A stretch of DNA of 33,021 nt, taken from NCBI GenBank assembly GCA_016765075.1, contig JAESQP010000156.1:1-33021 (forward strand). The letters are read 5' to 3'. The stretch comes from Gammaproteobacteria bacterium (GTDB taxonomy: Bacteria; Pseudomonadota; Gammaproteobacteria; GCA-2400775). Made by a program: the position numbers and the translations under genes. Of the stretch, positions 5,059-9,492 are shown piece after piece (the first letter of the stretch is position 1; the number at the start of each line of letters is the position of its first letter). The notes below the pieces were generated by a model that was not told where the DNA came from, made no database searches, and saw nothing but the letters and a program-made list of their open reading frames with translations.

Positions 5059-5324
5059 GTACTCCAGCAAGTTAGTATTGACAGGTTCAGAGCTAGCCCA
5101 ATGTACCGATACAAGGCGCAGTCCGCAGGCAAGGGTTGTTCCCTTGCCAAGGGCTGTAACGCAGTAGCGGTGCATTGGGCTGGTTCCCTTTGGGCGAGAC
5201 GAGAAGCGGTCATCTGCGTTGTTGTGCTGCCTTGAATTAGCTATGGCTAATACTGCGTTCGCACGCCTATCAGCTGACCGCTTTTCGTCTCGCTGAGCCT
5301 GTCAATACTAACTTGTTGGAGTAC
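5059..5324. repeat. Nested palindromic (MITE-like) element, 266 bp, abutting the bamD stop codon
   Basis: The outer arms are inverted copies: 5056-5090 (GTACTCCAGCAAGTTAGTAT, then TGACAGGTTCAG) and 5293-5327 (CTGAGCCTGTCAATACTAAC, then TTGTTGGAGTAC), with only a few mismatches. Inside are two further stem-loops. One joins AGCCCAATGTACCG (5095-5108) to CGGTGCATTGGGCT (5168-5181) and carries the perfect hairpin GGCAAGGG / CCCTTGCC (5128-5148). The other joins GCGAGACGAGAAGCGGTCA (5194-5212) to TGACCGCTTTTCGTCTCGC (5275-5293). A small ATTAGC TATG GCTAAT hairpin lies near its tip. There is no credible coding frame. The right end touches the bamD TAG (5324-5326). It behaves like a non-autonomous mobile or REP-type structured repeat. 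Confidence 0.7.
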
Positions 5325-6112
5325 TAGCTCTTCGTTCGTTTTCGTAAGGCTTTGGCCTGTGGGTGATCAGGGTAATTTAGCTGCAACACTTGTAGGCTAT
5401 TGTTCGCTAAGTAGTGCATGCCGAGATGTTTGTAAGTGCGTATTAGTATGGCTAAGGCATCAGCGGTGGCTGGCGACTCTGGCAGCTTTTCAATAATATA
5501 TTTGGCGCGATTAATTGCGGCGATAAAGGCACCACGTTTAACGTAAAAGCGTGCGACATGCAGTTCGTGCTTAGCCAGGGTGTTACGTAAGTAAACCATA
5601 CGCTGCCGTGCATCTGAGCTGTATTGACTTGCGGGAAACTTATTTACCAGCTGCGAAAAATATCGGAACGACTCGGTAAGTGTACGTGGGTCACGGGTGG
5701 CTGGGTCAAAGAAGCGGATAGGGCCAAATTTTCCCGAACGATCATCAAATGTGGCTAAGCCGCGCAGATAATAAGCACGATCTACTTTTTCATGGCGTGG
5801 GTTTAGGCGAATAAAGCGATTAGCTGCACTTAAGGCTGCTTCAAGTTCCTCATTATCAAGATAAGCAAAGCCGATATTGAGTTGTGCGCGCTGGGCAAAA
5901 GGCCCAAATGGAAAGCGTTTTTCCAGTTCTTGAAAATGTTCGATGGCGGCATCGTAGGACTTTTTATTATAGGCGGCAGTTGCCTCATCATAAAGGCGGG
6001 CGGCAGTCCAGTTAGTAGGGACATCCTCTTTGTCAGGAAATAATGAACAGCCACTGGTGACTAACAGTGAAGCCAGCAGAAACAGTAGAAGTATTGGGCG
6101 TAAGCAAAGCAC
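5324..6112 (-). CDS. bamD: Outer membrane assembly lipoprotein BamD
   Basis: The 262-residue lipoprotein has a signal peptide with lipobox LVTSGC (acylated C22). Five TPR-like repeats follow: ARLYDEATAAYNKKSYDAAI, FPFGPFAQRAQLNIGFAYL, then YYLRGLATFDDR, FPASQYSSDARQRMVYLRN and AKYIIEKLPESPATADAL. These are the hallmarks of BamD (YfiO), an essential Bam-complex subunit that folds beta-barrel proteins into the outer membrane. The start is GTG at 6112 with no strong ribosome site; no better start keeps the signal peptide. Divergent rluD-pgeF across a second bamD-like gene matches the usual gammaproteobacterial locus. The stop codon TAG borders a palindromic element, so the last residues may have been altered by insertion. 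Confidence 0.93.
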   Translation of the reverse strand: MLCLRPILLLFLLASLLVTSGCSLFPDKEDVPTNWTAARLYDEATAAYNKKSYDAAIEHFQELEKRFPFGPFAQRAQLNIGFAYLDNEELEAALSAANRFIRLNPRHEKVDRAYYLRGLATFDDRSGKFGPIRFFDPATRDPRTLTESFRYFSQLVNKFPASQYSSDARQRMVYLRNTLAKHELHVARFYVKRGAFIAAINRAKYIIEKLPESPATADALAILIRTYKHLGMHYLANNSLQVLQLNYPDHPQAKALRKRTKS

Positions 6113-6181: not shown

Positions 6182-7453
6182 TTAACGGCTATTGAGTTTG
6201 TTATGAATATCCGACATCGAGCGCACCCAGGGGTTCGGTAGCTGTAACTCAGCACTGAGTCCCTTTAACGCAAGTAAGGCTTCATTTTTGCTGCGGTAAT
6301 GACCATAAGTCAGCGTAAACCAATGACTGCCTTCATTGCGTGCGCGAAAATAGCCTGCTTCTGCAGCAATATCATGTTTCTTAATGTAATCTTGCAAGGC
6401 TTTTTCATCGTTAGTGCCAAGTAATTGTAAGGTATAGCTAGCGCCAGGCTGTGACAAATACCACGATTCCCGTTTGAGTTCATTATCATTGTCAGTGAAA
6501 TCGCTAAGGTCAGCAGTATTGGGTGATATGAGTTGGACTTGGTTTTCACTCTCTAGGTTTGGCTCAGTGCGTGGGCGAGGTTTATTGGCAGCTTCGATTG
6601 CAAAGCGGGCACTTTGTTTTGCAATTTGGCGCTGCTTCAGCTTAGCGGGGTCAACACGGATTACCTCATTGCCGCTAGTATGCGCACTAGTAGTATGACG
6701 ATAATCGGGATATTTGCGTTTAAGCGCTTGGCGCACATCAGAGGCTTGTACCAGGCTACCTTGTGCTGTAAATGCCTCAATCATTACTGAATAGGCTTCT
6801 GGTGTAGATTCCGAGCGAGTATAATTTTTAATTATGTATTCAGCGCGGGCAATGGCTTCTTTATATTTATTGAACGACAAAGCAGTTTTTGCCAGTTTAA
6901 TTTCATGTTCAGCTAATTTGCTGTGTAGGACTTCCATGCGAATACGGGCATCTTGATTGTATTTGCTATTAGGGTGGCGGCGGACTAATTCAGCGAACGA
7001 CGCAAATGCTTTACGTGCTATAGCAGTGCGCGCATTACCCGTTAGCTGACTGCTTTGCAGTTGTTTAATTCCATCATTGTAGCGAGCGAGGCCGCGCAGA
7101 TAATAGGCGTAATCAATGAGCGAATGGTTTGCATAGGTTTGAATAAAGGCGTTGCTGGCTTCGACTGCAGCATTACTATCACCCAGCTTGTAATGCGCAT
7201 AACCGCTGCCGAGCAGCGCCTGTGGCGTTGTTTTGTCTTCAGGAAATTGCGTGCGTAAGCGGGTAAACTGATTTAATGCTTCACGGAAATTACCATTATC
7301 CACGGCGTTTTGGCCGCGTGCATAGATTGCCATGGCCGTATTTCCAGCAGTAAGGTCTGGTTCGCTGCCAGTGTTAGACGGCGCCGTGTTTGGTGTGCTC
7401 GAACAGGACACACATAATAGTGCGGCCAAGCCAAGCAGCGTTAATTTATTCAA
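6182..7453 (-). CDS. BamD-like TPR lipoprotein with a C-terminal SPOR domain
   Basis: From TTG 7453 the product has about 423 residues. It starts with a lipoprotein signal (MNKLTLLGLAALLCVSC, Cys17; Cys at -3 is unusual). A BamD-like TPR array follows: ARGQNAVDNGNFREALNQF, YYLRGLARYNDG, HPNSKYNQDARIRMEVLHS, AEYIIKNY. A low-complexity linker of about 90 residues comes next. The SPOR/DamX-type domain at about 337-417 shows YTLQLLGTNDEKALQDYI, WFTLTYGHYRSKNEALLAL and NPWVRSM. SPOR domains bind denuded septal glycan; BamD TPRs bind barrel precursors. The gene lies 69 bases upstream of true bamD in the same direction and looks like a duplicate fused to SPOR. An earlier TTG (7471) is possible; GGAG 9 bases before 7453 favours the later start. 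Confidence 0.8.
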   Translation of the reverse strand: MNKLTLLGLAALLCVSCSSTPNTAPSNTGSEPDLTAGNTAMAIYARGQNAVDNGNFREALNQFTRLRTQFPEDKTTPQALLGSGYAHYKLGDSNAAVEASNAFIQTYANHSLIDYAYYLRGLARYNDGIKQLQSSQLTGNARTAIARKAFASFAELVRRHPNSKYNQDARIRMEVLHSKLAEHEIKLAKTALSFNKYKEAIARAEYIIKNYTRSESTPEAYSVMIEAFTAQGSLVQASDVRQALKRKYPDYRHTTSAHTSGNEVIRVDPAKLKQRQIAKQSARFAIEAANKPRPRTEPNLESENQVQLISPNTADLSDFTDNDNELKRESWYLSQPGASYTLQLLGTNDEKALQDYIKKHDIAAEAGYFRARNEGSHWFTLTYGHYRSKNEALLALKGLSAELQLPNPWVRSMSDIHNKLNSR

Positions 7454-7624
7454 AAACCTCAGCTCCAGCAAGGTATGCAGACCTTAGTCATCAGTGCGAT
7501 GATAAGTGATAGTGATGGCTGGACTATAGCAGAGCTTATACAACGTTGCCTTAATTTTGATATGGATACTTATGTGTTGTTGTAAGATAAAACTGAAGGT
7601 TAGCAGGTGTTATTAAAATGTTTA

Positions 7625-7683: not shown

Positions 7684-8673
7684 ATGACAGTAACGACAAA
7701 TAATACGAATGAATTGCGTCAGTCGATTAGCGACGAGCTAGCAGGCATGAGGCTCGATCAGGCACTGGCACGCCTATGGCCAGAGTATTCGCGTTCACGT
7801 TTAAAACAATGGGTTGATGAGGGGCTGGTTACGGTTAATAGTAAGGTGTTGCGACCTAGAGACAAAGTGCATGAAGGCGATGAAGTTGTATTAAAGCCGC
7901 AGCAGATTGCTGATGACACCTGGCTGGCGCAAGACATTGCTATCGATATAGTCTATGAAGATGACCAGCTTATTGTTATTAATAAAGCGGATGGAATGGT
8001 TGTTCACCCGGCGGCAGGAAACTACCAAGGTACCTTGGTTAACGCCTTATTATATTATGCGCCGAATCTTGCTACTTTGCCGCGTGCGGGGATTGTGCAT
8101 CGGCTAGACAAGAATACAACGGGCTTATTGGTTATTGCCAAAACTTTACAGGCACATAAGGTTCAGGTGGCACAGATGGAGCAGCGTAGCGTCAAACGCA
8201 AGTATGTGGCGATTGCTCAAGGCGCCATGGTGGCTGGTGCGACTATTGATGAGCCGATTGCGCGCCACCCTGTTAATCGTCAACGTATGGCGGTAGTTAG
8301 AGCCGGCGGCAGAACAGGACGCGAAGCCATTACCCATTATCGCGTACGCGAACGTTTTCGTTGTCACACCATGATTGATGTGCAGCTCGAAACAGGTCGC
8401 ACTCATCAAATTCGTGTGCACATGGCACATATAAAGTATCCGCTGCTAGGCGATCCAGTGTACAGCGGCCGTGCACGTAGAATGGCAGGTGCCTCAGCAG
8501 AGCTGACTGCGTGCCTAGATAATTTTAAGCGACAAGCCCTGCATGCTTTTGAACTTGAGCTGGTACATCCTCAAAGCAAAGAGATGATTGGTTGGCAAGC
8601 ACCGATCCCTGATGACATGCTGGCCGTGGCCGACGCCTTGCGCGTGGATGACAAACTGCACAGTGACAATTAA
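7684..8673 (+). CDS. rluD: 23S rRNA pseudouridine synthase RluD
   Basis: The 329-residue protein has an N-terminal S4 RNA-binding domain (about 20-80, MRLDQALARLWPEYSRSRLK). It is followed by the RluA-family catalytic domain. The catalytic Asp is D142 in GIVHRLDKNTTGLLVIAK. Also present are RKYVAIAQG, LETGRTHQIRVHMAH and YPLLGDPVY. RluD makes pseudouridines in helix 69 of 23S rRNA. The identity as RluD rather than RluC or RluA is supported by the S4 domain, the length and the classic divergent position opposite bamD with pgeF next. pgeF begins 36 bases after its stop and is probably co-transcribed. Confidence 0.92.
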   Translation: MTVTTNNTNELRQSISDELAGMRLDQALARLWPEYSRSRLKQWVDEGLVTVNSKVLRPRDKVHEGDEVVLKPQQIADDTWLAQDIAIDIVYEDDQLIVINKADGMVVHPAAGNYQGTLVNALLYYAPNLATLPRAGIVHRLDKNTTGLLVIAKTLQAHKVQVAQMEQRSVKRKYVAIAQGAMVAGATIDEPIARHPVNRQRMAVVRAGGRTGREAITHYRVRERFRCHTMIDVQLETGRTHQIRVHMAHIKYPLLGDPVYSGRARRMAGASAELTACLDNFKRQALHAFELELVHPQSKEMIGWQAPIPDDMLAVADALRVDDKLHSDN

Positions 8674-8709: not shown

Positions 8710-9492
8710 ATGATGCGGAGCGCCCCCCTTATCACCCCAAGTTGGCCAGCACCGCACTGGGTAAAGGCGGTAACGACGACACGTCAGGGTGGTGTCAGTG
8801 CTGGGGCATTCGCAAGTTTTAATCTTGCTCAACATGTGGGTGATACAGCAAATAATGTATCGTTAAATCGAGTACAACTTGCCAGTTTGCTTAATTTGCC
8901 GCAGTCGCCCCATTGGTTGACACAGGTGCACGGTAATCGTGTGATTGAGCTTAGTGATACGGATGAGCAGGGGATGGTACCCAAAGCGGATGCAAGTTAC
9001 ACACGAGCAGCAGGGCAGGTATGTGCCGTGATGACAGCCGATTGCCTGCCGATATTGCTCTGTCATCGTCGACATAAAATTATTGCTGCTGTACACGTGG
9101 GTTGGCGCGGTCTAGCGCAAGGCGTAATTGAGGCAGCGTTGACGCATTTTGATGGCCATTCTAATCCCCGTTCTAGTCATAAGAATCAGATGCTGGCTTG
9201 GCTCGGCCCGGCTATCAGTAGTAAAGCATTTGAGGTAGGTGTAGAGGTTTATCGGACGTTGGCTTTAGACCAAGACAGCGCTGCCTGTTTTACAACAAGT
9301 AGCGATGCGCATTGGCATGCAGATTTATATGAATTAGCGCGATTACGCTTGCGCAAGGCTGGGGTTGCAGCAATATATGGTGGGGAGTTTTGCTCTTACA
9401 CTGATTCAGCACGTTTTTTTTCTTATCGCCGTGATGGCAAGAGCACAGGTCGCATGGCGAGCCTTATCTGGATGGACGATAAAGGGTGTTAA
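8710..9492 (+). CDS. pgeF: PgeF/YfiH multicopper-oxidase-like peptidoglycan editing factor
   Basis: The 260-residue protein belongs to the YfiH/DUF152 family. Motifs are TTTRQGGVSAGAFASFNLA, WLTQVHGNRVIEL, CAVMTADCLPILLC, AAVHVGWRGLAQGVIEA and WLGPAIS; these carry the His and Cys metal ligands. The family removes wrongly incorporated L-Ser or Gly from peptidoglycan precursors in E. coli and shows purine-nucleoside phosphorylase/laccase-like activity elsewhere. The protein normally ends soon after RMASFIW; here RMASLIWMDDKGC is extended. Its last codons GGG TGT TAA lie in the terminal repeat of the palindromic element at 9484-9688. It follows rluD and faces tesA. Confidence 0.9.
   Translation: MMRSAPLITPSWPAPHWVKAVTTTRQGGVSAGAFASFNLAQHVGDTANNVSLNRVQLASLLNLPQSPHWLTQVHGNRVIELSDTDEQGMVPKADASYTRAAGQVCAVMTADCLPILLCHRRHKIIAAVHVGWRGLAQGVIEAALTHFDGHSNPRSSHKNQMLAWLGPAISSKAFEVGVEVYRTLALDQDSAACFTTSSDAHWHADLYELARLRLRKAGVAAIYGGEFCSYTDSARFFSYRRDGKSTGRMASLIWMDDKGC

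Follow-up and report, generated by a model that had tools for sequence, protein, structure and literature searches.

A BamD-type TPR protein joined to a DamX-type SPOR domain is encoded next to bamD in several gammaproteobacterial groups

Background

BamD binds POTRA5 of BamA and is essential, and CpoB (YbgF) is a periplasmic TPR protein linked to division. For the SPOR domain of DamX, one study reports that septal localisation needs Q351, S354 and W416, that the side-chain hydroxyl of S354 is not required, and that R380 and K418 make up a basic patch (PMC6895207). There is dispute over how the building of the outer membrane is coordinated with that of the septal wall. One study saw BAM enriched at midcell (PMC8620860), whereas in another the insertion of outer-membrane proteins (OMPs) in E. 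coli was highest at division sites with BamA evenly spread and without enrichment there, the septal insertion being ascribed to wall maturation (PMC9242858). With BamA spread in this way, E. coli would need no septal recruiter.

Here we analysed a stretch of 33,021 nucleotides (the window) from a gammaproteobacterial genome. A previous sequence-only reading had pointed to a gene next to bamD, the product of which would combine the TPR layout of BamD, a linker and a DamX-like SPOR domain, and had known of no described protein of this kind. Our search of the open-access literature (titles, starts of abstracts and selected passages) likewise found no description of a BamD-SPOR protein; automatic annotations of such a protein may exist. 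SPOR is not mentioned in a BAM review of 2026 (PMC13067283). The BamD-type TPR domain and the SPOR domain are each known; it is their conserved combination that looks new.

Results and Discussion

Architecture of the fusion gene

The features of the locus are summarized in Table 1. The reading frame of the fusion gene, with its stop end at 6182, stays open as far as TTG 7471, and residues are numbered here from TTG 7453. No consensus promoter-like site was found for the fusion (shuffled sequences gave a mean of 3.6). Lipidation is predicted at Cys17; the cysteine at the end of the signal peptide is invariant in 16/16 aligned fusions, and position -3 of the lipobox is a non-standard Cys in all three fusion proteins of the family-level group f1. 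On one side of the fusion/bamD pair lie sucC, sucD, nadE and glnB (the score of the glnB product is slightly below its equivalog cut-off), and rluD and pgeF lie on the opposite side.

Table 1. Features at the fusion/bamD locus of the window
Feature	Position	Strand	Remarks
BamD-like/SPOR fusion CDS	6182..7453	-	423 aa; TTG start 7453, as chosen in the sequence-only reading
Shine-Dalgarno-like GGAGCTGAGG	7457..7466	-	just before TTG 7453, by reading
Signal peptide ending at Cys17 (LCVSC)	7403..7453	-	
BamD/YfiO-type TPR domain	6749..7339	-	residues 39-235, Pfam YfiO
Linker	6470..6712	-	residues about 248-328, low model confidence
SPOR domain	6221..6445	-	residues 337-411, Pfam SPOR
True bamD	5324..6112	-	on the strand of the fusion, 69 bp further downstream
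rluD	7684..8673	+	divergent from the fusion, locus marker; NF008385 417.4 bits, cut-off 351
pgeF/yfiH	8710..9492	+	TIGR00726 203.3 bits, cut-off 141.15

The proposed layout was borne out by profile searches, in which the fusion matched Pfam YfiO (PF13525; 140.2 bits, cut-off 25) and NCBIfam TIGR03302 for BamD (179.9 bits, cut-off 81.4) in its N-terminal part, and its C-terminal region did match Pfam SPOR (PF05036; 36.5 bits, cut-off 21). In searches of PDB sequences, BamD/YfiO chains were the sole matches of the N-terminal part below an E of 0.01 (1e-27 for the best), and the SPOR domain of E. coli DamX (2lfv) was the only match for the C-terminal part (E 5e-9 with the whole protein, 3e-10 alone). 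The ending NPWVRSM, read as DamX-like, aligns with NPWAKPL of DamX, and the neighbour on the same strand is, as had been stated, the true bamD (YfiO, 213.4 bits). A real architecture of a BamD-type TPR domain and a DamX-type SPOR domain is thereby confirmed. Chance is excluded because of the E-values, the recurrence of the tandem in six groups (16 genomes) and dN/dS ratios well under 1 in both domains (see below).

An AlphaFold2 model of the fusion, built from three sequences only, gave a helical array with block pLDDT of 76-93 over residues 41-210. The model matched BamD 5ayw with a Foldseek E of 1.7e-11, and its TPR part matched E. coli BamD 3tgo with a VIA Z of 19.4 (3.3 A over 212 residues). 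The SPOR part was poorly resolved in the full-length model. When the last 100 residues were modelled alone, the best of five models had a mean pLDDT of 66 (the other four, 38-43), and its first Foldseek match was again 2lfv (prob 1.00, E 0.01, TM 0.59); for the relation of the SPOR domain to DamX, the sequence match is stronger evidence than the model.

Other readings of the gene were rejected. An origin of the TPR part from CpoB/YbgF does not agree with its TIGR02795 score of 54.7 bits, below the cut-off of 90.1, or with the presence of a separate CpoB in the genome (contig C55, L003; 118.4 bits), which adjoins an ORF that is Pal-like by eye; the TPR part is of the BamD type rather than of the CpoB/YbgF type. 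The fusion is not the DamX protein itself (PRK10905, 42 bits against an equivalog cut-off of 256). A chance run-on of two genes was rejected because the fusion recurs in six groups.

Spread of the tandem

An initial set of 56 genomes, that of the window among them, contained the fusion in two more members of the genus (69-70% identity) and in two distant genomes. Two further genomes of the genus (G001 and G004) gave a SPOR-region match only, with neither bamD nor the fusion, and the locus is probably missing from these assemblies. Among 398 genomes from across the phylum, a large share of which belong to the same class, no full-length match beyond the window genome was present among the matches listed.

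We then searched 369 genomes of the class by profile and by SPOR, and read 132 bamD loci: that of the window, 9 others, 40 mostly with several matches, 2 chosen by SPOR and 80 controls. Since this choice favours carriers, counts among the 132 loci are not frequencies, and with carriers taken from the matches listed there are at least 16 in the samples. A BamD-like gene with SPOR lies upstream of bamD in 16 of the 132 genomes, which belong to six family-level groups of the class: f1 (G000, G002, G003), f22 (G025, G172, G279), f23 (G026, G173), f72 (G075, G204, G306), f76 (G206, G079) and f129 (G132, G340, G245). Both Pfam cut-offs were passed in 14/14 carriers run against Pfam, from all six groups; the other two, G002 and G003, were recognised by our own profiles and by identity. 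In a seventh group, f82 (G085, G209), the gene is present with a decayed SPOR domain (0/2 reach the Pfam cut-off), and in four genomes the second BamD-like gene lacks SPOR (G308, G039, G181, G287). In the remaining 110 genomes, including all 80 controls, the stretch that was read holds a single BamD-like ORF, and no SPOR was seen in the controls. Of these 80 control stretches, 73 showed rluD, and a few contigs may stop short of the position that the fusion would occupy.

The fusion is on the same strand as bamD and next upstream of it in 18/18 fusion-bearing loci, these having been read because of bamD, so that copies elsewhere could be missed. The gaps are 4-364 bp; the frame in G172 overlaps bamD, due to a mechanical choice of the start.

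Several related arrangements were observed. Two f129 loci (L075, 1725-3194; L076, 1264-2562) encode, ahead of the TPR-SPOR gene and bamD, a protein in which BamD-like TPRs precede two SPOR domains according to our own profile (Pfam reports one), with a signal peptide and no evident lipobox. In f36 (L040, L095, L096), a BamD-like gene that lacks SPOR stands in tandem with bamD, and its TPRs group apart, bordering on BamD, in both trees described below. In G002, an additional BamD-like copy, which is truncated, lies between rluD and the fusion (L038, 5569-6114).

The TPR domain as a BamD paralogue

The sequence-only reading had called the product a second BamD-like lipoprotein; that it is a second BamD is not supported by the present data. 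In our first tree, all 20/20 fusion TPR domains fell outside the branch holding 52/52 BamDs (support 95/97); the bootstrap of this tree was unsettled, with many long branches, the fusion TPRs lay on several branches, and the fusion label needed 5 changes. A second tree, from which CpoB and five rows, long or short, had been omitted, placed the 18 fusion-type rows on one side of a branch with a support of only 79, and the BamDs on another with 96.

In 68 columns, 80% or more of the 52 BamDs agree; of these columns the fusions keep 53% on average. Framework residues (Y36, A51, P63, Y107, Y110 and P155 in E. coli numbers) are kept in 19-20 of the 20 fusions, whereas none has G65, D131, V181, Y185, R188, A190 or N196, each of which 85-100% of the BamDs possess; the lost residues may line the contacts with BamA, BamC or BamE. 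R135 is kept by 1/20, and R197 by 13/20, the three f1 proteins among them. In several fusion groups the last TPR is absent or unrecognisable in the alignment. Judged on these residues and trees, the TPR part is a BamD paralogue and not BamD. Y62 and R197 of E. coli BamD matter for substrate recognition according to one study (PMC10945584), and the alignments place F70 and R203 of the window protein at these two positions.

The SPOR domain and septal binding

Aligned with DamX, the fusion has Q343, R372, W409 and R411 at the positions of Q351, R380, W416 and K418 (the last with the basic character kept), and G346 at that of S354. Q343 and W409 are invariant in 14/14 aligned SPOR domains from the six groups, and R411 is kept in 13/14; the f82 fusions are without the conserved Q and W. 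Since the DamX glycan-contact residues are kept, septal binding by the fusion may fairly be expected, and the residues for binding bare glycan strands, through which the sequence-only reading had SPOR domains localise, are in place. At the sequence level, the septal half of that reading is well supported. In places the SPOR domain would be dispensable, because the f82 gene persists with its SPOR decayed and the G308 copy is without one.

SPOR domains of this type also occur on other proteins. L120 (1666-2883) joins the type IV pilus protein PilW (184.9 bits, cut-off 154) to a DamX-type SPOR (42.5 bits); L041 (1953-2822), near bamD, encodes a lipoprotein-like product with a Sel1 repeat (Pfam) and a DamX-type SPOR; and L117 (3464-4555) encodes a similar lipoprotein-like product, with the Sel1 repeat seen by eye. 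The DamX-type SPOR domain seems to have been joined to several repeat lipoproteins.

Origin and selection

On a tree of the 132 BamDs, the carrier label needs two changes, and a tree constrained to hold the carriers in one clade exceeded the result of the free search by 53.8 log units (P = 0.97 in the AU test). We regard a single origin as likely rather than proven, because the 18 rows share one side of the second TPR tree at a support of 79 only. One old bamD duplication, followed by vertical inheritance, some losses of SPOR and some further duplications, is the simplest account of these sequences.

The dN/dS ratios (Nei-Gojobori, point estimates) were well below 1 in both the TPR and the SPOR domains. 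For the f22 pairs, they were 0.15-0.16 in TPR, 0.19-0.20 in SPOR, 0.28-0.46 in the linker and 0.08-0.11 in bamD; for the f76 pair, 0.17, 0.35 and 0.35 in TPR, SPOR and linker, SPOR being no slower than the linker; and for a close f23 pair with few changes, 0.44, 0.21 and 0.28. Most f1 comparisons were saturated. Extra copies do decay (one is truncated in G002, L038, and copies in G204 and G308 are without SPOR), as would be expected if the fusion were a degenerating duplicate without function; however, given these ratios and the intact frames in six groups, we consider such a degeneration very improbable.

Partners in the genome and the distribution of BamC

The window genome has one BamA match, on contig C17, and a dedicated BAM with a second BamA was rejected on this ground. 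BamE and Amidase_3 matches are also present, and in the carrier set, which consists of the 16 tandem genomes, the two f82 genomes and G308 (n = 19), BamE is over its cut-off in 18/19 and Amidase_3 in 17/19. The window genome has six SPOR matches including the fusion. One of the others is encoded at L118; it is long and built like DamX, with a DamX score of 26.8 bits that is below the cut-off.

BamC was called with PF06804 at E<=1e-6 among the matches listed. By this search it was not found in the window genome, in 12/16 carriers or in the fusion-carrying genomes of f1, f23 and f72, and was present in 4/16 (f22 and G340); weak matches below the cut-off were seen in G206 and G079. In the 132-locus set, which leans to strong BamD matches, BamC was present in 6/19 of the carrier set versus 104/113 of the others (Fisher; P = 3e-8), and class-wide it was over the cut-off in 229/369 among the matches listed.

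These counts, together with the failure of the search to find BamC in the three f1 tandem genomes, could be explained if the fusion joined BAM beside BamD and BamC was then lost. However, the carriers are close to one clade and offer no more than 1-2 independent pairs (P = 1 in a sign test), the comparison set is biased as noted and the class-wide count is lower, f22, f82 and G340 have both the fusion and BamC, G206 and G079 have the weak matches, and a divergent BamC could be missed elsewhere. We think that a replacement of BamC by the fusion is quite improbable, and the failure to find BamC in most carriers is a lead, as yet without phylogenetic support.

Proposed role

The reading that we favour, at roughly even chances, is that the fusion is a septal outer-membrane adaptor, which would hold an envelope partner, perhaps BAM, at the septal wall stripped by amidases. 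In this proposal, bamD would have been duplicated at its own locus, probably once, and the copy would have gained a DamX-type SPOR domain. The product would sit in the outer membrane as a lipoprotein, its SPOR domain would bind glycan that amidases have denuded where the septum closes, and the linker would bridge the distance between the wall and the membrane anchor with its TPR array. This array, which can no longer be seated exactly as BamD is, would hold a partner, most likely a BAM part or a BAM client, and in this way the fusion might couple outer-membrane building or invagination to the splitting of the septal wall. Septal binding is the element that we infer from the SPOR residues; the partner of the TPR array is the least certain element of the explanation. 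The high OMP insertion at division sites of E. coli (PMC9242858) and the midcell enrichment of BAM (PMC8620860) speak for this role, and against it speak the Cys at -3 in f1, the decayed SPOR of f82 and the SPOR-less copy of G308, the SPOR ratio of the f76 pair, the lack of a promoter-like site, the weak SPOR models and the even spread of BamA (PMC9242858). The seat of BamD itself is disfavoured for the fusion, because the BamD residues are lost and R197 is kept in only 13/20. A link to OMP assembly is possible, since the Y62 and R197 positions survive as F70 and R203 in the window protein, and the earlier suggestion that the fusion places barrel assembly at the septum is, as it stands, unsupported and a possibility only.

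It is conceivable, though we lean against it, that the fusion is a septal scaffold outside OMP assembly, with BamD only as its ancestor and with TPRs that bind wall enzymes or Tol-Pal in the manner of NlpI, LpoA and CpoB. The loss of BamD-specific residues in 20/20 fusions and of a recognisable last TPR in several groups would be expected in such a scaffold, as would the like SPOR type on the Sel1-SPOR and PilW-SPOR proteins, but the constant position of the gene beside bamD (in loci read because of bamD) and the remaining substrate-recognition positions F70/R203 are less easily explained by it. A bolder form of the adaptor, which we regard as unlikely, is specific to BAM at the septum: with SPOR on denuded glycans, the F70/R203 array would hand over OMPs or a BAM subcomplex, and the fusion would have taken the place of BamC in most of the clade, BamC being lost.

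Under the favoured septal adaptor, the tandem pair may tie outer-membrane building to cell division. A conserved BamD-derived domain joined to a septal-wall binder would be a natural experiment on the disputed coupling of the two, and a clean handle on it.

Comparison with known systems

Several described proteins share parts of this design. DolP is a lipoprotein like the fusion, and contacts BamA and gathers at midcell according to one report (PMC8081527); unlike the fusion, it has BON domains and neither TPR nor SPOR. RlpA also has a C-terminal SPOR domain and a predicted outer-membrane anchor (PMC6895207), but RlpA of P. aeruginosa is a lytic transglycosylase and not a TPR protein. CpoB/YbgF differs in that the fusion is below the YbgF cut-off. 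The SPOR domain of DamX (PF05036, 2lfv) shares with the fusion the Q, R, W and basic contact positions. BamD shares with it the TPR array behind a Cys-bearing signal peptide, the locus and a fold match, whereas the fusions are without D131, Y185, R188, A190 and N196 in 20/20 cases and have a linker and a SPOR domain in addition.
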